Below, one piece after another: positions 20,325-36,096 of a stretch of 64,000 bases of DNA. The notes below the pieces were generated by a model, which had not been told where the DNA came from, ran no database searches, and saw only the letters and a list, made by a program, of their open reading frames with translations. The stretch is taken from assembly GCF_017311415.1 (NCBI RefSeq), contig NZ_JAEKIS010000001.1, forward strand, positions 558,001 through 622,000, given 5' to 3'. A program made the translations under genes and the position numbers. The stretch comes from Salipiger abyssi. GTDB lineage: Bacteria > Pseudomonadota > Alphaproteobacteria > Rhodobacterales > Rhodobacteraceae. Each line of letters opens with the position of its first letter. Position 1 is the stretch's first letter.

Positions 20325-21653
20325 TCAAGAGTCTGGCGCGAAACTCGCTGTTTTCCCGGGCTGTGGCGGCTCGGGTGCCTCTGCCGTCCGCGCGACGCCG
20401 CGGGCGCATTCGCGGGCGTGGATGCCGAGCATCATCAGGGCCGGCCAGAGCAGATAGGCCTCGATCTCGATATTCTCGCCGAAGGATAGCAGCACCAGCA
20501 CCATGCAGAGCCCCAGGGGCAGGCGTCCGCGCGCCCCCTGTGCCGCATCCTTGAGCGCGAGGCCGATCTGCCAGATCAGCGGCACGGCAAAGGCCAAGAG
20601 CCCCACCAGCCCCTTGACGAAGAGCAGGCCGAACCAGGTGTGGTGGCTGCCGATGGGCATGTATTCCACCAGATGCGGGCCGGGCTGCACGGTGCCGTGG
20701 CCGAACCAGACCGCCTCTTCCTGCCAGCGCTCATGGGCAATGCGTTGCAGCGTGGCGCGCACGCGGGTGCTGTCGGAGCGGGCGGATTTGAAGCCGTCGA
20801 TGCCGGCGCCGATGGTCCGCGCGAGCCACGGCCCGGTGATCGCAAGCGAGGCGGTGAGCCCGGCCAGCACCGCCCAGGCCCAGCTGCGCAGCACCAGCGG
20901 CATCATCCGCGGCCCGATCGTGCAGGCGACGAGCCCCACCAGCCCCATCCGCGATTTCGATGCGAGGATCATCAGCGTGCCGGCGGCGATGCCCGCCGCG
21001 CGCCAGCGGTTCTCTTTCTCCTCCAGCGCGAACAGCACCATCGTGACCCCCAGCAGCGCCGCAAAGGGCGACCAGGGCGCGTAGAACTGCCAGCGCGGCG
21101 TCCAGGAGGCGGGATCGTAGGTGAAGAAGAACACCGAAAAATATTCCGGCCCCGGCCCGCCCACCGCCTTGAGCGGCGAGGTCCAGATGCGCTCGGGCAG
21201 GCCGATATAGGGCGCGATGAGCAGCGCGGGGGCGATGCAGAGGGTCCAGAACCCCAGGCGACATTGCGCCCGGATCAGTACCTCGCGCCGCACCGGCAGG
21301 ATCGCCCCCGCCAGCGGAAAGAGCGCCAGCAGCGCCCAGCCCTTGGCCCAGCCGATGGAGGATTTGATCGTCTGCTTGAGCCCCAGATCCCAGTTCAGAT
21401 GCCCGGCCCAGAGCGCCACCAGCATGACCAGCATGCCGAGCATCCAGGCCCAGATCACCGGCGGCACCGTCCCGGTGGCGCGCAGATCGTCGCGGATCGC
21501 CGGGCCGAGATAGAGCGACAGCACCACCAGCCCCGCCAGCAGCCAGGCCAGCACCGGCCCGACCACGTAAAGCGCGCCGATCCCGTAGAACGGCCAGGTC
21601 CAGAGGATCGTCTTCCAGACCATGGATTCGGCGGGGGTCTGCGGCGCAATCAT
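20325..21653 (-). CDS. O-antigen ligase/polymerase (Wzy-like) membrane protein
   Basis: The 442-residue protein has around ten membrane helices. A large periplasmic loop before the last helices contains GHGTVQPGPHLVEYMPIGSHHTWFGLLFVKG, the pattern of the Wzy_C/O-antigen ligase domain. It would polymerise undecaprenyl-linked repeat units of the exopolysaccharide or transfer the chain. It overlaps the Wzz-like gene by 4 bp and lies with it in one leftward transcription unit. Polymerase versus ligase cannot be decided from sequence alone. Confidence 0.72.
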   Translation of the reverse strand: MIAPQTPAESMVWKTILWTWPFYGIGALYVVGPVLAWLLAGLVVLSLYLGPAIRDDLRATGTVPPVIWAWMLGMLVMLVALWAGHLNWDLGLKQTIKSSIGWAKGWALLALFPLAGAILPVRREVLIRAQCRLGFWTLCIAPALLIAPYIGLPERIWTSPLKAVGGPGPEYFSVFFFTYDPASWTPRWQFYAPWSPFAALLGVTMVLFALEEKENRWRAAGIAAGTLMILASKSRMGLVGLVACTIGPRMMPLVLRSWAWAVLAGLTASLAITGPWLARTIGAGIDGFKSARSDSTRVRATLQRIAHERWQEEAVWFGHGTVQPGPHLVEYMPIGSHHTWFGLLFVKGLVGLLAFAVPLIWQIGLALKDAAQGARGRLPLGLCMVLVLLSFGENIEIEAYLLWPALMMLGIHARECARGVARTAEAPEPPQPGKTASFAPDS

Positions 21654-23092
21654 GCCAGACGCCCTTTCTCGGAGAGCAGACGCTCGATCAGCGCGCGGCG
21701 GATCCAGCCCAGCGACAGGGCGAAGAACAGCAGGAAACTGGCGGCGCCACCGGCGGCAATGGCGAGCTTTTTGCGCGGCGAGGTCGGGCTGTCGGGCAGG
21801 GTCGGGTCTTCGAGCACCTGCACCAGCGGATAGGAAGCGTAGATATCGGCCTTGCTCGACTGCGCCCGCGCGATGGCGGAGGCAAAGACCGCCTCGGCGA
21901 CGTTGAAATCCCGTTGCAGGTCTTCCAGCCGCGCCGCAAGCGGCGCCAGACGCTCCAGCCGCGCGGTCTGAATGCTGAGCAGCGCGCGCAGCTCTGCCAG
22001 CTCGGCCTCAAGCCCCGCACGTTCCGATTCCTGCCGCACCAGCTCGGTCAGAAGCGCCGCGCGGGCACCGTCGGAGGAGCGTTCCAGCGCGCCGGACAGA
22101 CCGGTCAGCGCCGTGGCGCGGGCCTCGGCCTTGTCGCGGGCGGAGGCCATGGCCGAGGCCGCCTTGACCACCTCCGGGTGACGCGCGCCATAGCTCGCGC
22201 GCGCCTCGGCCAGATCGCTGGCGGCCAGCGCCATCGCCTCGATCAGCGCGATATAGGCGGTGTCGCCATTGAGCCGCAGGATGCGGGCGGCGGTTTCCGC
22301 ATCGGTGCCGAGCCGCGCCTCCAGCCCGCGCACGGTGGCGAGCTTGCGCTCGTATTCGGCGGCGGCGGTGTCGATGCGGCCGCGCAGGTCGTCGGCCTCG
22401 TCGAGCTGGCGGTTGTATTGCGCGACCGAATGCAGCCCGCTCTCGTCGCGCAGCCGCGAGATTTCGCTCCGCGTCGCGGCAACCGAGTCGCGATATTCCC
22501 GGATCGCGTCGAGCCCGCCGGTCTGGCGGCTCTCCAGCTCGTCGCCGCGCAGTCGGTCGATCTCGACGAAAAACGCCTCGAGCAACGCGGCGTTGCGCGC
22601 CTGCGCCGCATCGGGATCGGGCCCGGTGATCTTTACGTGCATGAAGGCGGTCTGGTCCACGAGCTGGACCTGCGGCTTGCCGAACGCCTTGGCGTCGATG
22701 TCCAGACGCCGCGCCGCATCCTTCAGCACGCGGTCGGCGGCGAGCAGGCGCTTGTAGGTCTCGGTCGGGCTGATGGAATTGCTGGAAAAGGCCGAGTTGG
22801 CATGGCTCGACGCCTGCCCGATCTCGGCGAGATTCACTGAAGAGGCAGAGCCCGAGCCCGGCAGGATCAGCGACATATGGCTGGCAAAGACCGGCGCGGC
22901 GGTCTTGAGATAGCCGGTGATCGGCGCCCAGATCCCGGCCAGGCCCAGCGCACAGATCCACACATAGCGCGGCAGGCGGCGGCGGTCGGTCACCGACCCG
23001 CCGATCAGCGCGCGGCGCAGAAAGCGGCGGCGTTTTCCGGGCGTTGCCTTGGCGGCGGGCAGCTCTGTCGTGGCGGTGTCTTGCAGGGTCAT
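21650..23092 (-). CDS. Wzz/GumC-type chain-length regulator
   Basis: A 480-residue polysaccharide co-polymerase. It has a basic N-terminal cytoplasmic tail, a first membrane helix near residue 45 (YVWICALGLAGIWAPITGYL) and a long periplasmic region with extended coiled coil (residues ~180-400, rich in E/R/L heptads). It ends with a SPRKK motif and a final helix (LAIAAGGAASFLLFFALSLGWI). The proline-rich DPTLPDSPTSPRK segment before the last helix is diagnostic. No cytoplasmic tyrosine kinase domain is fused. ATG 23092 has GGAGA at good spacing. A promoter-region palindrome lies about 100 bp upstream. Confidence 0.82.
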   Translation of the reverse strand: MTLQDTATTELPAAKATPGKRRRFLRRALIGGSVTDRRRLPRYVWICALGLAGIWAPITGYLKTAAPVFASHMSLILPGSGSASSVNLAEIGQASSHANSAFSSNSISPTETYKRLLAADRVLKDAARRLDIDAKAFGKPQVQLVDQTAFMHVKITGPDPDAAQARNAALLEAFFVEIDRLRGDELESRQTGGLDAIREYRDSVAATRSEISRLRDESGLHSVAQYNRQLDEADDLRGRIDTAAAEYERKLATVRGLEARLGTDAETAARILRLNGDTAYIALIEAMALAASDLAEARASYGARHPEVVKAASAMASARDKAEARATALTGLSGALERSSDGARAALLTELVRQESERAGLEAELAELRALLSIQTARLERLAPLAARLEDLQRDFNVAEAVFASAIARAQSSKADIYASYPLVQVLEDPTLPDSPTSPRKKLAIAAGGAASFLLFFALSLGWIRRALIERLLSEKGRLA

Positions 23093-23183: not shown

Positions 23184-23202
23184 CCTATCCTTTCGGGTAT
23201 GC
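23184..23202. promoter_or_regulatory. EPS-locus palindrome, copy 1 (upstream of wzz)
   Basis: CCTATCC-TTTC-GGGTATG: TATCC at 23186-23190 and GGGTA at 23195-23199, spacer TTTC. It lies about 95-110 bp before the Wzz-like start and abuts the response-regulator stop. It matches three other copies in the locus. Confidence 0.6.
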
Positions 23203-23204
23203 GC

Positions 23205-23819
23205 TCAGAACAGCCCCGCGTCGCGCGCCACAATGGCCGCCTGGGTGCGGTTGTTGACCTCCAGCTTGCGATAGAGCGTCTTCATATGCAGCTTGATCGT
23301 CGGCTCGGTGAGATCGAGATCGCGGGCGATCTCCTTGTTCGACTTGCCCTCGGTGAGCCCCGCCAGCACCTCCATCTCGCGCTTGGTCAGGCGCTCGGCC
23401 ATGGGGTGAGTCTTGGTCTCTTCCGGCGCGGTCATAAAGCCGATGGGGGCGTATTGCTCGCCCATGGCCATGAACTTCACCGCATTGACCAGCGATTTCG
23501 CCGGCAGGGTCTTGGGGATGAAGCCGGCGGCACCGAGGCTCAGCGCCTGTTCCGCCACTTCGCGCGTGGCCTGGCCGGAGATCAGCGCCACGCGCTGGCC
23601 GCCCTTCATGCCGATCGCCTCGGTGAGACTGTCCAGACCGTTCATGCCGGGCATCTTGTAATCCAGCAACACCAGGTTGTACGCCTCGTCCTCGCGGATG
23701 CGCTCGCAGGCCTCGTCAAAGCTTGCCGCGCTGCCCAGTTCGATATCGTCCTCGGCGCCCAGAAACGCGATCAGCGTATCCCGCAGCAGGTCGTGGTCGT
23801 CGGCAATCAGCACTCTCAT
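23205..23819 (-). CDS. LuxR/NarL-family response regulator
   Basis: A 204-residue regulator with an N-terminal receiver (LIADDHDLLRD; phosphoacceptor Asp53 in LLDYKMPGMNG; FIPKTLP lysine). The C-terminal LuxR-type helix-turn-helix is LTKREMEVLAGLTEGKSNKEIARDLDLTEPTIKLHMKTLYRKL. ATG 23819 is supported by AAAGGATC before it; the conserved receiver begins right after. It is placed centrally in the polysaccharide cluster and is divergent from the WecG-fusion gene, with a shared 283-bp promoter region carrying a palindrome. It probably controls the locus and is the likely partner of the hybrid kinase at 26099. Confidence 0.88.
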   Translation of the reverse strand: MRVLIADDHDLLRDTLIAFLGAEDDIELGSAASFDEACERIREDEAYNLVLLDYKMPGMNGLDSLTEAIGMKGGQRVALISGQATREVAEQALSLGAAGFIPKTLPAKSLVNAVKFMAMGEQYAPIGFMTAPEETKTHPMAERLTKREMEVLAGLTEGKSNKEIARDLDLTEPTIKLHMKTLYRKLEVNNRTQAAIVARDAGLF

Positions 23820-23917
23820 CTGGCGCGATCCTTTCTTGAACTGGTCGGCAAAGCTACCGCCGGTCTCTGACCATTTTAAGGCATTGCTAACCAAGTGTAA
23901 CCGAGAACCCGGCTAGG

Positions 23918-23939
23918 GCCTATATCCCTTCGGATAGGC
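23918..23939. promoter_or_regulatory. EPS-locus palindrome, copy 2 (divergent promoter)
   Basis: GCCTATATCC-CTTC-GGATAGGC: core TATCC (23923-23927), spacer CTTC, GGATA (23932-23936). It lies ~100 bp before the response-regulator start and ~165 bp before the WecG/sugar-transferase start. Confidence 0.65.
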
Positions 23940-24103
23940 GCTGCGCCGCCCGCATCGTTAACCGCAGCTTTCGGAGCGCGGGGGGCGCCGCCGCGTCCGG
24001 ACGGTCGCGAATGCGTGCCGCGCCCATCCCGGCGCGAAATTGCGAGAATCGGGGGTGGCGGCGCACGGATAGGGCGAGTTCAACACCTGCCCTGGAGCCC
24101 CCG

Positions 24104-25480
24104 ATGAAACATCAGCCGACCCTCGCCTTCCGTGACGCAACCCTTGTCGCCGATCTGCCGAAACGCCCGATCCTCGGGCTGCCCGTGGTGAATGCCACCA
24201 CCGAAGCGACCGTGAACGCCCTGCTCTCGGGCGCGGCGCGCAGCGTGTTTTTCCTCAATGCCCATTGCGCCAACCTGCGCGCCGGCAATCGCGAGTATGC
24301 CGATGCCCTCACCCGAGCCGATATGGTGCTGCCCGACGGCATCGGGGTCGAGCTGGCCGCGCGTATGACCGGCGGCGGGCTGACCGAGAATCTCAACGGC
24401 ACCGATTTCACCCCCGCCCTGCTGCGTCAGGCGGCGCGGCACGGGATGTCGGTCTTTCTCTTCGGCGCGCAGCCCGGCACCGCCGAAAAGGCCGCGCTGA
24501 CGCTCGCCGCAAAGATCCCCGGCCTGCGCATCGCCGGCACGCTCGACGGCTACGAAGGCGCCGCCGATCCCGAAGCGGCCATCGCGCGAATCAACACCTC
24601 CGGCGCCGATATCCTGCTGGTCGCCATGGGCGTGCCGATGCAGGAGCTGTGGATCGACCGCCACCTGCCCGAGCTGCGCCCCCGGCTGGTGCTGGGCGTC
24701 GGCGCACTCTTCGATTTCCTCGCCGGCAATGTCCGCCGCGCGCCCGCCGCCGTGCGCAAGGCTAGGCTGGAATGGGGCTGGCGACTGATGCAGGAGCCGC
24801 GCCGGCTGGCCAAGCGCTATCTGATCGGCAACGGCACTTTCCTTGCCCGCGCCTCGGTGCATGCGCTGCACGTCGCCGGGCGCGAGGCTGTGGCCAAGCG
24901 CGCGCTCGACATGGCGCTGAGCGCAACGCTGCTGGTCATGCTCGCCCCGGTTCTGCTGCTCGTGGCGGCGCTGATCCGGCTGGAAAGCAAGGGCCCCGCG
25001 CTCTTCCATCAGCAGCGGGTCGGGCGTGATGGGCGGCCCTTCACCATCCTCAAGTTCCGCACTATGCATACCGATGCCGAGGCGCGGCTGGCGGCGATCC
25101 GGGCGCAATCCGACCGGCAGGGCATCTGCTTCAAGTCGCGCCACGATCCGCGCGTGACGCGGGTGGGCCGGTTCCTGCGCCGCTATTCGGTGGATGAGCT
25201 GCCGCAGATCCTCAACGTCTTCAAAGGTGACATGTCGCTGGTCGGCCCGCGCCCTGCGCTGCCCTCCGAGGTCGCGGCCTATCCCGCCGCTGCGCTGGAG
25301 CGGCTGAAGGCGCGGCCCGGCATCACCGGGCTCTGGCAGGTCTCGGGCCGTGCCGATATCGGCTTCGACAAGATGGTCGACATGGATGTGGCCTATGTCC
25401 GCTCGCGCAGCGTGCTGCTCGACCTGATGCTGCTGGCGCTGACCGCGCGGGCGGTGCTGTCGGGGCGCGGCGCCTACTGA
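24104..25480 (+). CDS. WecG/TagA glycosyltransferase fused to initiating sugar-phosphate transferase
   Basis: The 458-residue protein joins two enzymes. Residues ~18-215 are a WecG/TagA/CpsF (GT26) domain: FFLNAHCANL, ADMVLPDGIGVELAARM, NGTDFTPALL, FLFGAQPGTAEKAA, VAMGVPMQELWI. Residues ~262-458 are a polyisoprenyl-phosphate sugar-1-phosphate transferase: one N-terminal hydrophobic segment, FTILKFRTMHTDAE, SVDELPQILNVFKGDMSLVGPRPALP and RPGITGLWQVSGR. The second half would load the first sugar on undecaprenyl phosphate and the first half add the next. ATG 24104 has GGAG upstream. It is the likely initiating enzyme for the exopolysaccharide. Confidence 0.88.
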   Translation: MKHQPTLAFRDATLVADLPKRPILGLPVVNATTEATVNALLSGAARSVFFLNAHCANLRAGNREYADALTRADMVLPDGIGVELAARMTGGGLTENLNGTDFTPALLRQAARHGMSVFLFGAQPGTAEKAALTLAAKIPGLRIAGTLDGYEGAADPEAAIARINTSGADILLVAMGVPMQELWIDRHLPELRPRLVLGVGALFDFLAGNVRRAPAAVRKARLEWGWRLMQEPRRLAKRYLIGNGTFLARASVHALHVAGREAVAKRALDMALSATLLVMLAPVLLLVAALIRLESKGPALFHQQRVGRDGRPFTILKFRTMHTDAEARLAAIRAQSDRQGICFKSRHDPRVTRVGRFLRRYSVDELPQILNVFKGDMSLVGPRPALPSEVAAYPAAALERLKARPGITGLWQVSGRADIGFDKMVDMDVAYVRSRSVLLDLMLLALTARAVLSGRGAY

Positions 25481-25493
25481 GCGCGACGGGACA

Positions 25494-25519
25494 GGCACCT
25501 ATCCCAACGGATAGGTGCC
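25494..25519. promoter_or_regulatory. EPS-locus palindrome, copy 3 (perfect 11-bp arms)
   Basis: GGCACCTATCC (25494-25504), spacer CAAC, GGATAGGTGCC (25509-25519): a perfect inverted repeat of 11-bp arms. It lies 74 bp before the SUOX-fold gene and 14 bp after the glycosyltransferase stop. It contains the same TATCC-N4-GGATA core as the other copies. No T tract follows, so a terminator is less likely. Confidence 0.7.
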
Positions 25520-25592
25520 CGATCCTGATGTCCGGCTGCTTTTTGCCCCGCAACATGGCAGTTTATCCCTAACACAACATGAGGCCCGACCG

Positions 25593-26102
25593 ATGCTCTT
25601 CCCCCGCCTTGCGACCGCCGCTCTTGCAACCGCGCTTTTCGCGCTGCCCGCCGGGGCCGAAACCCTGCCCATGCCCACCGGGCCGGTGATCCTGACGATC
25701 TCCGGCGAGATCGAGAATACCAATGGCGACGGCACCGCCGCCTTCGATCTCGACATGCTGCGCGCCCTGGGCGAGAGCGAGATCGTCACCGAAACCATCT
25801 GGACGCCCGACACCCATACCTTCACCGGCGTGCGGCTCAAGACACTGCTCGACCATGTCGGCGCCGAGGGTGACGAGATCACCGCCATGGCGATCAACGA
25901 TTACGGCGTGACGATCCCGTTCGAAGACGCGACCGAAACCGGCCCCATCGTCGCCTACGAGATGGACGGCGCGCAGATGTCGCGCCGCGACAAGGGCCCG
26001 CTCTGGGTGATTTACCCGTTCTCCTCTTCGAGTGACTACCGCACCGAAGTGATCTATTCCCGGAGCATATGGCAGCTCGACCGGATGACGATCGAAGAAT
26101 GA
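25593..26102 (+). CDS. Periplasmic SUOX-fold protein lacking the molybdenum cysteine
   Basis: A 169-residue exported protein (signal peptide ending PAGA-E near residue 22). It matches the small oxidoreductase-molybdopterin-binding fold: LTISGEIENTNGDGTAAFDLDML, FTGVRLKTLLDHVGA, AINDYGVTIPFEDA, GPLWVIYPF, RSIWQLDRM. The mature chain has no cysteine at all, so it cannot provide the thiolate that ligates molybdenum in sulfite oxidase or YedY/MsrP. Its stop overlaps the hybrid kinase start (ATGA), which suggests it acts with that kinase, for example as a periplasmic ligand-binding partner. Start ATG 25593 directly precedes the signal peptide. Confidence 0.7.
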   Translation: MLFPRLATAALATALFALPAGAETLPMPTGPVILTISGEIENTNGDGTAAFDLDMLRALGESEIVTETIWTPDTHTFTGVRLKTLLDHVGAEGDEITAMAINDYGVTIPFEDATETGPIVAYEMDGAQMSRRDKGPLWVIYPFSSSSDYRTEVIYSRSIWQLDRMTIEE

Positions 26103-28609
26103 CCGAAGCCTTTTCGAACCGTCGAAAAGGTGATGCTTCCCTGTGGCGCCGCGGCCGGCTCTTGCTGGCTGCGGTCGGTCTGCTTTGCGTGATCGCGATC
26201 ACCTTTCTGGTGTCCGAGATCGTGCAGGAGATGCGCTTTCTCAATTCTGCCAGCTCCGACAATGTCCACTGGGTGCTGTCGCAGGCCGAGGTGGAGTTTC
26301 TGGAGTTCCACAACGCCATCGACCTCGCGCGGCAGAGCGACGACCCTGAGACGCTGAACGCGGTGATTGTCGAGTTCGACGTGTTCTACAGCCGCATGAT
26401 GACGCTCGGCACCGGCTCGCTCTATGCCGATCTGCGTGCCATCGGGAATTTCGGCTATCCGGTCTCGGTCATCCGCGAAAAGCTCGACGCGATGATCCCG
26501 CTCATCGACGGCAGCAGGCCCGAACTGCGCGCCGGGCTCGGCACGCTGGCGGCGGAGGCCGACGAGATCCGCCCGCTGCTGCGGCGGGTGGCGACGACCG
26601 GGCTCCAGTTCTTTGCCGAACGCTCGGACGAAAGCCGCAGCTCGGTGGCGGTCACCATGCTGCGGCTGGCGCTGATCACCGTGGCGCTGGTGCTGGCGCT
26701 GGTCGTGCTGCTGAGCCACACGCGGCGCGTCAGCAACCAGACCGAGCGGCGCGGTCAGGAACTGGCGGATGCCTATGCGCGGCTCAACACGATCCTGCAA
26801 ACCTCGCTGGATGCGGTGGTGGTCTCGGACCTTCAGGGCAAGATCCTCAATTTCAACGCCGCCGCCGAGCGGATCTTTCAGTACAGCCGCGACGAGGTGA
26901 TCGGCCGCAACATCGCCGAGGTTCTCATCCCCGACGATTACCGCGCCGCCCATGCGGCAGGCATGGCGCGGATGCGCGAAACCGGAGAGCACCGGGTCGT
27001 CGGACATGGCCGCATCCGGCTCGAATCGAAACGGCGCAACGGTCAGATCTTCCCGGTCGAGCTGGCCATCGAAAAGGCGCAGGCGGGCGAGGAAGAGGTG
27101 ATGGTCGCCTTCCTGCGCGACATCTCGCACCGCGTCGCCTCGGAAAAGGAGCTGGTCGAGGCGCGCGACAAGGCGCTGGCCGGGGAAAAGGCCAAGGCCG
27201 AATTCCTTGCCATGATGACCCACGAGATCCGCACACCGCTGAACGGGCTGCTGGGCAATCTCGCGCTGCTGGACAAGACCCCGCTCTCTTCCGCGCAGGG
27301 CCGCTATGTCCGCAATATGCAGATCTCGGGCGGCGTGCTGATGCACCATGTCGACACGGTACTGGATGTGGCGCGGTTCGAATCCGGCGTCTCCGTCGCA
27401 CGGGAAGAGGTCGTGCATATCGGCGAGCTGTTCCAGAACATCGTGGATTCGCAGGCCAGCGCCGCCGAGGCCAACGGCAACCAGATGCTCTGGGGCTGGG
27501 TTGGCGAGCCGGCGGACTGGGTGCGGATCGACGCCTCGCGGCTGCGGCAGGTGCTGCTCAACCTCGTGGGCAACGCGACCAAGTTCACCCGCGACGGGCG
27601 CATTCTGATAGAGGCGGAGCGCTCTGCCGAGACGACGGGAGAGATGCTGGAGATCCGGGTGATCGATTCCGGCATCGGCATTTCCGAAGAGGATCAGGAG
27701 CGGGTCTTCAACGATTTCCAGACGGTGGGCGACGCGAATTTCGCCGGACAGGCCGGCACCGGGCTGGGGCTTGGCATCGCGCGGCGCTTTGTCGAGGCGA
27801 TGGGCGGCGAGATCGGCGTGGAAAGCACCCCGGGCGAGGGCAGCGTGTTCTGGCTGCGCCTGCCGCTGGTCCTTGCCGACGGTCCCGGAAAGCCGGAGGA
27901 ACACTCCGCAGCAGCGCCTGAAGCGCCCGGTCGCGACATCCTTCTGGTGGAGGACAACGAGATCAATCTGGAGCTGGCGCGCGAGATGCTGACGGGCCTC
28001 GGCCACCGGGTGACCGAAGCCCGCGACGGCGAGCAGGCGGTGGCCGCCGCCAGCGGGCACCGGTTCGACCTGATCCTGATGGATATCCGCATGCCCCGGC
28101 TCGACGGGCTCGGCGCCACCCGCGCCATCCGTTCGGGCGCCGGCGCCAGCCGCGACGTGCCCATCGTGGCGCTCTCGGCGAATGTGCTGCCGGAGGCGCG
28201 GGACAGCTTTACCGAGGCCGGCATGACGGGCTTTCTGCCGAAACCGCTGACCGAGGACGGGCTGCTCCAGGTCATCGCCCGCTTCTGCTCCGGCGCAAAG
28301 CCGGCGCCCGACCCCGCGCCTCAGCCGCCTGAACCGGCAATCAGCCCGATGGACAGGCTGCGCCGCCGCTACGAGGACGAGACCCGCACGCTCTTCGACT
28401 GGCTCGCCACCGGTCCTGCCGACCGGGCAGAGATCGCCCATCGGGCGCATCAGGTGGCGGGCAGCGCGGCGGCCTTCGGGCAATCGGAGCTGCGCGAGGC
28501 GCTGGTGGCGGTCGAAATGGCGGCGGATCGCAATGCACCGGAACTGGGAGCCACCATCGCGGCGGCCCGCACCGCCTGGGAAAACGCGCCCGCGCCGACG
28601 CTCTCCTGA
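26099..28609 (+). CDS. Hybrid sensor histidine kinase (PAS-HisKA-HATPase-REC-Hpt)
   Basis: An 836-residue membrane sensor. Two helices (residues ~21-41 and ~184-206) bracket a 140-residue mostly helical periplasmic domain. Then follow a PAS domain (~226-345), HisKA with FLAMMTHEIRTP (His375), HATPase_c (N-box region LLNLVGNATKF, DSGIGI, GTGLGLGI), a receiver (LLVEDNEINL; Asp662 in MDIRMPRLDG) and a C-terminal Hpt-like domain (AHRAHQVAGSAAAFG, His784). The full phosphorelay set implies transfer to a separate response regulator, most simply the LuxR-type one at 23205. The ATG overlaps the preceding stop. Confidence 0.88.
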   Translation: MTEAFSNRRKGDASLWRRGRLLLAAVGLLCVIAITFLVSEIVQEMRFLNSASSDNVHWVLSQAEVEFLEFHNAIDLARQSDDPETLNAVIVEFDVFYSRMMTLGTGSLYADLRAIGNFGYPVSVIREKLDAMIPLIDGSRPELRAGLGTLAAEADEIRPLLRRVATTGLQFFAERSDESRSSVAVTMLRLALITVALVLALVVLLSHTRRVSNQTERRGQELADAYARLNTILQTSLDAVVVSDLQGKILNFNAAAERIFQYSRDEVIGRNIAEVLIPDDYRAAHAAGMARMRETGEHRVVGHGRIRLESKRRNGQIFPVELAIEKAQAGEEEVMVAFLRDISHRVASEKELVEARDKALAGEKAKAEFLAMMTHEIRTPLNGLLGNLALLDKTPLSSAQGRYVRNMQISGGVLMHHVDTVLDVARFESGVSVAREEVVHIGELFQNIVDSQASAAEANGNQMLWGWVGEPADWVRIDASRLRQVLLNLVGNATKFTRDGRILIEAERSAETTGEMLEIRVIDSGIGISEEDQERVFNDFQTVGDANFAGQAGTGLGLGIARRFVEAMGGEIGVESTPGEGSVFWLRLPLVLADGPGKPEEHSAAAPEAPGRDILLVEDNEINLELAREMLTGLGHRVTEARDGEQAVAAASGHRFDLILMDIRMPRLDGLGATRAIRSGAGASRDVPIVALSANVLPEARDSFTEAGMTGFLPKPLTEDGLLQVIARFCSGAKPAPDPAPQPPEPAISPMDRLRRRYEDETRTLFDWLATGPADRAEIAHRAHQVAGSAAAFGQSELREALVAVEMAADRNAPELGATIAAARTAWENAPAPTLS

Positions 28610-29827
28610 CTACTGCCCGAGCACCGTCCCCGCGGCGGCCACCGCCCCCACCACACCGGCGGCTTCGGCCAGGTTGGTGACGCTGCTGTCATAGCAGGCG
28701 ATGGAATCGCCGGGCAGCAGATAGGGGTCGTAATCGTCGCGGTCGGCGCGGCGCAGCATGTCCTCGATATTGCGCTCGATCACCGTCGAGACGCCGGTCA
28801 TCGGGTTGCGCGTGAACAGGATCGCCGAGCGATGCGCGCTGGTCGCCCGCGCGCCGCCCACGCAATTGGTGTCGATCACCGCCTGCATGAATCGCGTGCC
28901 ATAGGGCATCTCGCGCACCTCGCGCCCGATGGCCGAGGGGGCGTTGCCGGTGGCGGGCTGGGTCAGGTTGGAGAGGAACAGCGACACGCCCGGCGGGCTC
29001 ACCGGGCCGGGGCGCATGAGATCGTCCTGAAAGCACTGGCGCGAGGGCACGGTGATCTCGTCGCCGGTCAGCAGCATCACGTCCACCGCATGCTGCCCCT
29101 CGAACACACCGCGCATATCAAGGTGATAGCTTTTGCCGCCGCGCCGCAGTTCGACCGCCGAGAGATCCGCATCGGGCCGCACCCCGCCGACCGAGCGCAG
29201 CGCCGCCGAGAGGTTGCGCGCCTCGGTGGAGGCGCCGAGCGCATTCTGGCGCAGCGTGTCGCGGTCGTCGGCGCCGCTATTGCCGATCTCGATCGCATGC
29301 GGCTCGAACACCGCGCCGGAAACCGCGACGCTGATGCTGGCGAAATCCGCCAGCCGCACGGAAATGCGCGGCGCCTCGTCATAGAACCCCTCGCTCACCA
29401 GCAGCCGGGCCAGCGCGGCCTCGACATCCTCGGGGCGCTGCCCCTGCGCGGGGATCGGCGGCAAGAAGGGCAGTTTGAGGCTGCCATCGCGCGACACGAC
29501 GTAATCGCCGTTGAAGGTCTCGTCGTCGCTGACGCGGATATCCACCAGATCGTTGCGCGAGAGCCGCTCGCCGCGCAGCGCCGTGGCGACAAGCCCGCCG
29601 CCCTTGCCGCCGGCGCGGTCCACGGGGCGGCATTTCTCGGCGTTCATCCGCTCCGAGAGCAGCAGTGGCTCGGATTGGGTGGAAGTCACCGGGTCGCGAT
29701 ACTGCGCCTGATAGCCACCGCCCGCGCGGATCTGGCCGATATTCTCGGGCGAGGGCGCGGGGCCGCAGCCGGCGGTGAGGCCGAGGCTCAGACAGGTGCC
29801 GAGCAGAATGGTTCGAGCAGACGCCAT
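28610..29827 (-). CDS. Wza/KpsD-like polysaccharide export lipoprotein
   Basis: A 405-residue outer-membrane export protein. The N-terminus is a lipoprotein signal peptide (LSLGLTAGC, lipidated Cys near residue 21). A polysaccharide-export domain follows (RLSRNDLVDIRVSDDETFNGDYVVSRDGSLKLPFLPPIPAQGQ), then SLBB-like segments (ISVAVSGAVFEPHAIEIG; DVMLLTGDEITVPS). The C-terminus ends in a hydrophobic, glycine/alanine-rich stretch. It would form the channel that takes the chain across the periplasm and outer membrane, working with the Wzz-like protein. Long upstream in-frame extensions have no signal peptide and were rejected in favour of ATG 29827. Confidence 0.82.
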   Translation of the reverse strand: MASARTILLGTCLSLGLTAGCGPAPSPENIGQIRAGGGYQAQYRDPVTSTQSEPLLLSERMNAEKCRPVDRAGGKGGGLVATALRGERLSRNDLVDIRVSDDETFNGDYVVSRDGSLKLPFLPPIPAQGQRPEDVEAALARLLVSEGFYDEAPRISVRLADFASISVAVSGAVFEPHAIEIGNSGADDRDTLRQNALGASTEARNLSAALRSVGGVRPDADLSAVELRRGGKSYHLDMRGVFEGQHAVDVMLLTGDEITVPSRQCFQDDLMRPGPVSPPGVSLFLSNLTQPATGNAPSAIGREVREMPYGTRFMQAVIDTNCVGGARATSAHRSAILFTRNPMTGVSTVIERNIEDMLRRADRDDYDPYLLPGDSIACYDSSVTNLAEAAGVVGAVAAAGTVLGQ

Positions 29828-29903
29828 GGAGATCCCTTGCAAACTCTCCTCATGGTTTAGCGCGATCCGGCGCCCGTGACTATTCGCGAGCGCGGTTGAG
29901 ACC

Positions 29904-29922
29904 CCTACCCGAAGGGATAGGT
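29904..29922. promoter_or_regulatory. EPS-locus palindrome, copy 4 (divergent promoter)
   Basis: On the minus strand ACCTATCC-CTTC-GGGTAGG; plus-strand span 29904-29922. It lies ~77 bp before the Wza-like start and ~100 bp before the flippase start, in the divergent gap. Confidence 0.62.
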
Positions 29923-30020: not shown

Positions 30021-31250
30021 GTGCCCAAACCCGCCACCTCCATGCTGAGCCACCTGCTGGCCTACGGCGCCTCCGAGATCGCGACGAAGCTGTCGCGTCT
30101 GGGCGTGGTGATCGCCGTGGCGCGCACGCTCGACGCCGCCGAGATCGGCGTGGCCGCTGCCGCGCTGGCCACCGGCGACCTGCTGAAATCGCTGACCGAA
30201 AACGGTGTCGGCCAGCGCATCATCGCGGCCTCGCAAGCCGAGCTCTCGGCCACCTGCAACCGCGCGCACGGGCTGTTCTGGGTCTGGTGCGGGGGGCTCT
30301 TCGCCGTGCAGTCGCTGATTGCAGGCGCGGTCTGGATGCTCACCGGCAATCCCGCGCTCGCCGCGCTGATCCTGGTGCTGGCCGGCGAATACCTCTTCAT
30401 GCCGGGCGGGCTGGTGCAGACCGGGCTGGCGCTGCGTGCCGGCAAGCTGAAACAGACCGCCGCCATCGCCGGCGGTCAGGCGGTCATGGCCAACCTGATG
30501 TCGGTGGCGCTGGCGCTGGTCTGGCCCTCGGCGCTGGCGCTGGTGCTGCCGCGCCTGCTGACCGCGCCGTTCTGGCTGCTCTCGATGCGCCGCCTGCACC
30601 CGTGGTCGCACGACCCCGAGGCCGGCAAGGCGCCGATCCGCCCCTTCCTCCGCTTCGGCGCCCCGATCCTCGGCACCGAGATCGTCAAGACCGCGCGTCT
30701 GCATGCCGACAAGCTGATCGTCGGCGCGCTGCTCGGACCGGAGATCCTCGGGCTCTATTTCATGGCCTTCAACGCCGGCCTCAGCCTCGCCACCTCCTTC
30801 TCCGCCGCCTTCGCCGCCGTGCTCTTCCCGCATCTCTGCACCGGGGCCGACCGCGCCGCCGCCATGCGGCAGGGGCTCGCTGTCTCGATCGGCCTCGTCG
30901 CCCCGGCGGTCATCCTTCAGGCGGTGCTGGCGCCCTGGTACGTGCCGCTGCTGCTGGGCGAGGGCTGGGACGGGCTGGCCGAGCCGGTGTCGATCCTCTG
31001 CCTCGTGGCCATCCCGACCATGCTCTGGACCGCCACCGCCGGCTGGCTGCGCGCCGAGAATCGCCCGCTGGCCGAGCTGCGCGGCACCGCCATCCTCACC
31101 GCCGCGATGATCGCGAACACTGTGATCGCCGCGCCCTACGGTCTGACCGCCCTCGCCTGGGGTTACCTCGCGACCGCCTGCGTCACCATGCTGATGCTGT
31201 CGCGCCCTGCCCTGTCCCTCGCCCTCTTCCCCGCAAACCGGAGTGCCTGA
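30021..31250 (+). CDS. Wzx-type oligosaccharide flippase
   Basis: The 409-residue protein has about 12 hydrophobic helices and the MATE/MOP-fold pattern of polysaccharide transporters (YGASEIATKLSRLGVVIAVARTLDAAEIG near the N-terminus; FLRFGAPILGTEIVKTARLHADKLIVGALLGPEILGLYFMAFN in the middle). It should flip undecaprenyl-linked repeat units to the periplasm for polymerisation. It starts at GTG 30021 with GAGGA about 10 bp upstream. An overlapping 589-codon frame starting at 30014 is antisense-like in composition and rejected. Confidence 0.82.
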   Translation: MPKPATSMLSHLLAYGASEIATKLSRLGVVIAVARTLDAAEIGVAAAALATGDLLKSLTENGVGQRIIAASQAELSATCNRAHGLFWVWCGGLFAVQSLIAGAVWMLTGNPALAALILVLAGEYLFMPGGLVQTGLALRAGKLKQTAAIAGGQAVMANLMSVALALVWPSALALVLPRLLTAPFWLLSMRRLHPWSHDPEAGKAPIRPFLRFGAPILGTEIVKTARLHADKLIVGALLGPEILGLYFMAFNAGLSLATSFSAAFAAVLFPHLCTGADRAAAMRQGLAVSIGLVAPAVILQAVLAPWYVPLLLGEGWDGLAEPVSILCLVAIPTMLWTATAGWLRAENRPLAELRGTAILTAAMIANTVIAAPYGLTALAWGYLATACVTMLMLSRPALSLALFPANRSA

Positions 31251-35070: not shown

Positions 35071-36096
35071 TCAGGCGTTGGCAGGGGTCTCGTAGACGCC
35101 GCCATGAGCCATGATCGCCCAGGCCATCCGCGCCATCTTGTTTGCCAGCGCAACTGCAACCAGCATTTTAGGTTTGCGAGCCAACATACGGGCCAGCCAC
35201 GACCCATCTGGCGCGCCGCCGCGTTTTTGCGCGGCTTGGATCGCGGACATTGCACCGATGATCAGCAAACGCCGCAGGTCGCGCTGACCCATTTTTGATA
35301 TCTTGCCCAGCCTTGTTTTACCGCCCGTAGAATGCTGGCGTGGTGCCAGCCCGATCCAGGCTGCGAAGTCGCGCCCCTTGCTGAACATCTCTGGCGGTGC
35401 CGCCAGCACGGCAATCGATACCGCCGTCACCGGGCCGATCCCCGGCATGGTCATCAACCTGCGCGCCACATCGTCCTGTCGGGCAATCTGTCGAAGTTGC
35501 CGGGTCAGCGCGTCAATGCGCGCGCTTAGCCCGGCGATGAGATCGAAGAATATTTGGCAAAGGCCGGTGACTTCGGGCGGCAATCGTTCTCCATTCTCAG
35601 CCACAGCCTTTTCCAACCGAGGCAGATGCTGAGGGCCTTTCGGCGCGACAATCCCATGTTCAGCCAGATGCCCTCGCAATGCGTTGATCGCCTGGGTACG
35701 TTGCCCTGTCAAAAGATCGCGGGTCTTGAGTACCATCGACTGACCTTGTTGCTCGGTTGTCTTGGTCGTCACAAAGCGCATGGTCGGTCGGGACGCTGCT
35801 TCAGCGATGGCTTCGGCATCATTCGCATCGTTCTTTTGCCGCTTCACATAGGGTTTGACGTATTGCGGGGCGATGAGCCTGACATCGTGGCCAAGTCTGG
35901 AAAGCTCCCGGCTCCAGTGATGCGCACCCGCGCAAGCCTCCAAAGCGATGGTGCAAGGCTCAATCTGACCGAAAAACTCTAGCACCCGCCCTCGCGGCAA
36001 CGCCTTGCTAAAGACCTTAGATCCATTTGCCGCCGCGCCATGCGCGTGAAACGAACTCTTGGCAATATCCAGCCCTACAATGCTAACCTTCTCCAT
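35071..36096 (-). CDS. IS110-family DEDD transposase
   Basis: A 341-residue recombinase. The N-terminal RuvC-like DEDD domain shows VGLDIAKSSFHAHG (first Asp), IALEACAGAHHW (Glu) and KNDANDAEAIAEAA (Asp-Asp). The C-terminal Tnp20/transposase_20 domain shows MTMPGIGPVTAVSI, FAAWIGLAPRQHSTGGKTRLGKISKMGQRDLRRLLIIGA, with the conserved serine-containing region. Length is normal for the family, with no frameshift. Likely active. Confidence 0.9.
   Translation of the reverse strand: MEKVSIVGLDIAKSSFHAHGAAANGSKVFSKALPRGRVLEFFGQIEPCTIALEACAGAHHWSRELSRLGHDVRLIAPQYVKPYVKRQKNDANDAEAIAEAASRPTMRFVTTKTTEQQGQSMVLKTRDLLTGQRTQAINALRGHLAEHGIVAPKGPQHLPRLEKAVAENGERLPPEVTGLCQIFFDLIAGLSARIDALTRQLRQIARQDDVARRLMTMPGIGPVTAVSIAVLAAPPEMFSKGRDFAAWIGLAPRQHSTGGKTRLGKISKMGQRDLRRLLIIGAMSAIQAAQKRGGAPDGSWLARMLARKPKMLVAVALANKMARMAWAIMAHGGVYETPANA

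Follow-up and report, generated by a model that had tools for sequence, protein, structure and literature searches.

Palindromes of an exopolysaccharide locus in Salipiger abyssi as probable operators of a NarL-type response regulator encoded beside a PruR-like protein and a DTB-type kinase

Which protein reads a palindrome that recurs four times within 6.7 kb of a single exopolysaccharide (EPS) locus of Salipiger abyssi, and what signal might reach that protein? The locus lies within the window, the 64,000-nucleotide stretch of DNA analyzed here (contig NZ_JAEKIS010000001.1, positions 558,001 to 622,000). A preliminary description had taken the palindromes to be the operator set of a LuxR-type response regulator (RR) encoded inside the locus. 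Module linkage, co-occurrence, and divergence together with the RR clade support this proposal, and our best reading is that the palindromes are the DNA output of a PruR–DTB phosphorelay, which would join two known kinds of system, PruR–DTB sensing and the NarL-type RR.

Palindromes and genes of the locus

The genes and palindromes considered here are collected in Table 1. Glycosyltransferases identified by Pfam also belong to the EPS locus, and an IS110-family transposase is found just beyond the gene cluster, at window positions 35071 to 36096.

Table 1. Features of the EPS locus in window coordinates; gaps were counted on the sequence from palindrome core to start codon.
Feature	Coordinates	Strand	Evidence or position
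O-antigen ligase/polymerase-like membrane protein	20325..21653	-	Named by eye; no Pfam or NCBIfam match; used as negative-control gene
Wzz/PCP-like chain-length protein	21650..23092	-	NCBIfam chain-length model 3.5e-12, far below cut-off; no Pfam match
Palindrome 1	23184..23202, core 23186-23199 TATCCTTTCGGGTA	no strand	93 bp upstream of Wzz-like start codon
Response regulator with receiver and LuxR/NarL-type HTH, the candidate binder	23205..23819	-	Pfam Response_reg 1.1e-19, GerE 1.4e-21; NarL structure 1a04 9.6e-24
Palindrome 2	23918..23939, core 23923-23936 TATCCCTTCGGATA	no strand	Between divergent RR (gap 103 bp) and WecG/sugar-transferase (gap 167 bp) genes
WecG/TagA + bacterial sugar transferase fusion	24104..25480	+	Pfam Glyco_tran_WecG 1.9e-60, Bac_transf 1.5e-64
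Palindrome 3	25494..25519, core 25500-25513 TATCCCAACGGATA	no strand	11-bp perfect arms; 79 bp upstream of PruR-like gene
PruR-like protein, SUOX fold	25593..26102	+	phmmer 7kos 1.2e-38; no Cys; PruR-site Tyr and Trp kept
DTB-type hybrid kinase	26099..28609	+	WX7E motif, PAS, HisKA, HATPase, REC, weak Hpt
Wza-like polysaccharide export protein	28610..29827	-	Pfam Poly_export 6.7e-11
Palindrome 4	29904..29922, core 29906-29919 TACCCGAAGGGATA	no strand	Between divergent Wza-like (gap 78 bp) and flippase (gap 101 bp) genes
Wzx-like flippase	30021..31250	+	Pfam Polysacc_synt_3 3.4e-31

All four cores were located in the sequence where the preliminary description had placed them, including the perfect arms that it claimed for palindrome 3; the core of palindrome 4 matches TATCC-N4-GGGTA on the minus strand. 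The distance to start codons, estimated earlier at ~75 to 165 bp, is 78 to 167 bp by count, and the extended form CCTATCC-CTTC-GGATAGG is valid as a consensus and not as a literal sequence, from which most copies differ. With ≤1 mismatch allowed in the core and both strands scanned, the window yields 12 matches, eight of which come from the four sites, each counted once per strand; 100 shuffles average 1.81 matches and reach 8 at most. Exact TATCC-N4-GGRTA occurs at seven distinct places in the 5.2-Mb genome, four of them the intergenic copies in this locus and the other three inside open reading frames (mechanical ORF lists); the reversed control pattern gives two forward matches and no reverse match in the same scan. 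The even genomic spread that had been set beforehand as refuting the proposal is thus not seen.

The RR carries a receiver domain in the place where an autoinducer-binding domain would stand, followed by a GerE HTH (Pfam), and we rejected its identification as an acyl-homoserine-lactone LuxR on that basis. This architecture is common to NarL/FixJ-type regulators such as NarL and VraR. Residues D7, D8, D53, S81, and K103, which we take to be the phosphorylation residues of the receiver, are invariant in an alignment of 11 rows. The NarL half-site, TACYYMT, is similar to the palindrome half-site; NarL sites are arranged as 7-2-7, whereas four nucleotides separate TAYCC from GGRTA in the palindromes.

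A PruR-like protein and its kinase partner

The preliminary description labeled the two genes downstream of palindrome 3 as a SUOX-fold protein plus kinase; fold and kinase were correctly recognized, and what escaped it is that the 7kos match and the WX7E motif point to a PruR homolog paired with a kinase that has features of DTB kinases. In a phmmer search of solved structures, residues 22 to 168 of the 169-residue protein match chain 7kos_A, titled "Pterin Binding Protein," and of the four structures matched, three have titles that name pterin-binding or putative pterin-binding proteins. The Pfam match of this small protein is Oxidored_molyb, and its N terminus resembles a secretion signal by eye. 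Among 71 PruR-like proteins of the named related loci, the pterin-site Tyr is kept in all and the Trp in 70; a Cys occurs somewhere in 15 of the 71, a count that takes in any position, irrespective of that of the Mo ligand. The kinase gene follows directly downstream, its ATG at 26099 overlapping the PruR-like stop codon at 26100 to 26102. Its WX7E motif reads WVLSQAEVE from residue 58, counting Met, in what is probably a periplasmic segment, and the motif is present in 70 of 73 kinases of the named loci; kinases of the sister clade described below have it in 17 of 21 cases.

Among NCBIfam models, TorS fits the kinase best (1.2e-104, 351 bits, under the cut-off of 676.5). TorT–TorS–TorR likewise combines a periplasmic binding protein, a kinase, and an RR, as the window locus appears to do with its TorS-like kinase; TorR is however OmpR-type and TorT is not SUOX-fold, in contrast to the NarL-type RR and SUOX-fold PruR-like protein found here.

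A closer parallel is provided by PruR–DTB pairs, which are described in a review as widespread and as consisting of a SUOX-fold PruR without the Mo-binding Cys, encoded beside a kinase that is TorS-like and bears a WX7E motif; DTB kinases are recognized there by a two-gene operon with PruR, a periplasmic WX7E motif, and a TorS- or BaeS-like cytoplasmic part, and 7KOS is there the PruR of Agrobacterium tumefaciens (PMC13259868). The window locus is like these pairs in its Cys-free PruR-like protein and TorS-like WX7E kinase, and adds to them a dedicated LuxR/NarL-type RR with a conserved set of putative operators. The passages of this review that were consulted leave the output of the kinase in PruR–DTB pairs unnamed, and "response regulator" and "LuxR" have no occurrence in the main text (PMC13259868). 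A literature search that covered mostly titles and summaries, with the original PruR–DTB study outside its scope, found no description of such an RR–operator system. In the A. tumefaciens PruA–PruR–DcpA system, a periplasmic pterin-binding protein controls surface polysaccharide (PMC13259868); the likeness to the window locus is a periplasmic pterin-binding-type protein tied to surface polysaccharide, and the difference is that DcpA acts through cyclic-di-GMP turnover, whereas the partner here is a kinase for which we propose a transcriptional output.

We are less sure of a pterin as ligand than of the RR as binder. The PruR-like protein may have taken on another ligand while the RR still binds the palindromes, an alternative compatible with the operator reading that we regard as doubtful, though the least so of those considered here. 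Ligand identity is unreadable from sequence, and no PruA orthologue was proven: the genome holds 34 SDR matches, all under the pteridine-reductase cut-off, the best of which passes the general SDR model only. Against another ligand stand the near-invariant pterin-site Tyr and Trp, the WX7E motif in nearly all partner kinases, and the titles of the matching structures. We retain a reduced pterin as the likelier ligand in the scheme proposed below.

The sites in related loci and the protein that may bind them

The preliminary description regarded a lack of conservation upstream of orthologous loci as a result that would speak against it. In 80 named related loci, TAYCC-N4-GGRTA occurs in 158 copies versus three copies of the reversed control, with at least one copy in 71 loci; around RR homologs in 20 regions there are 38 copies versus 0 for the control, with a copy in 16 regions. 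These two sets are not independent, since the DNA of seven regions is found in both. The pooled site matrix reads C-C-T-A-T/c-C-C, N4 with a G..C preference, and then the mirror, and the consensus of the relatives is CCTAYCC-N4-GGRTAGG.

We scored a gene as bearing a site when one lay within 350 bp upstream of its start codon; genes were left out if less than 350 bp of upstream sequence was present in the locus, and matches if they fell below a per-gene identity floor or began past query residue 80. By this test, a site precedes PruR in 64 of 70 cases (median 82 bp, quartiles 75 to 88), Wza in 32 of 46 (median 79 bp, quartiles 77 to 85), Wzx in 32 of 46 (median 106 bp), Wzz in 31 of 50 (median 91 bp, quartiles 81 to 96), the RR in 31 of 79, and the WecG fusion in 17 of 51; because one divergent site is common to Wza and Wzx, the two counts are a single observation. 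Control genes give 0 of 50 (ligase-like), 1 of 73 (kinase), and 3 of 51, 1 of 50, and 0 of 21 (glycosyltransferases), and the reversed pattern is found upstream of one gene in total. Conservation is thus borne out, with a near-fixed distance before PruR, Wza, Wzx, and Wzz. A strict site is missing before six of the 70 PruR genes and from modules L239 and L240. L239 is the same DNA as L135, which together with L096 comes from records titled Nocardioides marinus and Enemella evansiae (Actinomycetota), respectively; both hold EPS/PruR loci of Rhodobacteraceae type, parts of their DNA recur in genomes of the window's family (that of L096 in L072, that of L135 in L239), and these assemblies look mislabeled or contaminated.

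Nothing carries the site more constantly than the RR–PruR–kinase module, a point that the preliminary description had also missed. A copy is present in 20 of 22 named loci with RR, PruR, and kinase but without Wzz, the WecG fusion, Wza, Wzx, and the ligase-like gene; glycosyltransferase matches are absent as well from 15 of these loci, and 14 of the 15 have a copy. EPS genes may sit elsewhere in such genomes, as in G025. Where the EPS locus is on a contig other than that of the module (G280, G261, G155, and G025), the strict site is present at the Wza–Wzx promoter in all four. Ten Wza–Wzx gaps were compared, six of which carry the strict site and four a version with one to three mismatches in 18 positions. 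The RR is found in 24 of 25 genomes with a Wza homolog, and in the sole exception (G097, 42% identity) a stretch of 13.8 kb is free of strict sites. Other arrangements also occur: in L233 and L234 (G023 and G227), the RR adjoins a different hybrid kinase (PAS-HisKA-HATPase-REC) with the EPS genes kept, and no PruR match was found in the retrieved regions; G017 has the RR–PruR–kinase module at one place and elsewhere an EPS locus that carries a separate RR copy and no PruR–kinase pair (L069 and L073).

Across 295 genomes of the family, strict CTATCC-N4-GGATAG is found in 71 (100 forward matches) and the reversed control in seven. The RR subfamily, present in 148 of the 295 at E values up to 1e-40, occurs in 64 of the 71 strict-motif genomes versus 84 of the 224 motif-free ones (odds ratio 15, p 6e-16, with relatedness ignored) and is missing at 1e-40 from seven strict-motif genomes. 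Among the matches listed, 75 of the 100 forward matches and the listed RR places only, 33 of 75 strict places lie ≤15 kb from a listed RR, versus ~1.5% assumed by chance, and 16 of the 33 lie ≤1.5 kb from one; the other 42 are away from any listed RR. In 40 regions, which span 40 of these far places and a single near one, a PruR–kinase pair was found in three (L174, L177, and L183) and an EPS locus in one (L192), and several far places lie between convergent genes in a terminator-like setting (crude ORF call). Four of them, L179, L185, L190, and L191, have a perfect CCTATCC-N4-GGATAGG far from any module in this setting. In the class outside the family, the motif occurs in 20 of 285 genomes and the control in nine, so the strong motif excess is a trait of the window's family.

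Divergence of the site follows that of the RR. In a sister RR clade (51 to 57% identity) with its own PruR–kinase pairs, the strict site is present in one of 20 regions, and CTAT-N8-ATAG with ≤1 mismatch is found in 13 of 18 PruR promoters versus 1.6 expected, lying 81 to 124 bp before PruR in 10 of them; the 18 are those of 23 regions with a PruR match, and some are close relatives of each other. No common palindrome was recognized in single paralog intergenic regions, and pooled PruR promoters gave one. An RR tree of 103 rows, built without duplicate sequences and without rows lacking a PruR match in the same locus, contains a clade of 84 rows, 74 of which have the strict site before PruR versus one of the 19 others, with 10 label changes of site presence versus 24.9 in shuffles.

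Could another related HTH regulator occupy the palindromes, either an acyl-homoserine-lactone LuxR or the paralogous RR of a second PruR–DTB module? LuxR-type boxes do resemble the palindrome half-sites in their general form. S. abyssi itself encodes a second PruR–kinase–RR module (L084; G000 contig C3, ~286 to 290 kb) with an RR that is 65% identical, and the recognition helix is nearly identical in paralogs whose loci are site-free, this one included; the L084 paralog could therefore bind the palindromes or engage in cross-talk. Helix differences, which we considered as a cause of site presence or absence, are uninformative for the same reason. Against a different binder, the site lies near genes of the locus RR subfamily, is found in the same genomes as this subfamily, and diverges along with it, it is kept in nearly all module loci that lack core EPS genes, and the 18-kb region around L084 has no strict copy. 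An SDR gene lies ~1 kb beyond the RR of L084. On balance we consider another HTH binder improbable, and the RR of the locus is quite likely the protein that binds the palindromes within a PruR–DTB–RR chain.

That the palindromes are RNA hairpins, such as terminators or leader structures, and no protein site at all, is highly improbable and was rejected: copies 1 and 3 directly follow the stop codons of the RR and WecG-fusion genes and convergent genes flank some family-wide matches, but copies 2 and 4 sit between divergent genes, the same sequence recurs at near-fixed distance from start codons, sense-strand U-G versus C-A counts of 9:5 (PruR), 3:6 (Wzz), and 2:2 (Wza) indicate that pairing is unprotected, and the outer N4 pair is complementary at a frequency of 0.373 versus 0.373 expected.

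Promoter architecture and proposed output

In the scheme that we favor, the PruR-like protein would bind a reduced pterin in the periplasm, and the pterin-bound form would dock on the WX7E sensor domain and thereby alter the activity of the DTB-type hybrid kinase. Phosphate would then pass through the REC domain and probable Hpt of the kinase to the RR, presumably in this order. An RR dimer is predicted to bind the palindromes and to set transcription of its own module, that is, RR and PruR–kinase, and also of the EPS units represented by Wzz, the WecG/sugar transferase, Wza, and Wzx with glycosyltransferases. It is the placement of the sites in relatives, which keep them together with a probable pterin-sensing system, that makes the palindromes most likely the landing sites of this regulator.

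We lean toward activation as the mode of action, since in PruR promoters of the relatives a TGGCAT-like word, which could belong to a -10 element, follows ~50 bp downstream of the site center. Near +55 in these promoters, TGCCAT is found in 36 of 64 and TGGCAT in 30 of 64 (one mismatch allowed), versus 22 to 25 for the best word of five shuffles. Wza promoters are barely above their shuffles (17 of 32 versus 13 to 15), and the best words of Wzz (23 of 31 versus 14 to 19) and Wzx promoters (27 of 32 versus 18 to 20) are GC-rich and differ; these word counts thus revealed no -10 element common to PruR, Wza, Wzz, and Wzx promoters. A third half-site is present at +20 in 31 of the 64 PruR promoters and absent from those of Wza, Wzz, and Wzx.

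The broadest claim, that this is a complete transcriptional arm of pterin signaling in which CCTAYCC-N4-GGRTAGG would define an EPS regulon across Roseobacteraceae/Paracoccaceae and sister modules with a diverged operator would form insulated parallel channels, we place just on the probable side of even. If it is true, slime production would respond to reduced pterins in the periplasm by way of transcription and not of cyclic-di-GMP, and the sister modules, which have the same layout, would provide such pterin channels within one cell. A motif of known position lets the regulon be read off genomes and makes the targets of periplasmic pterins testable in tractable marine bacteria.
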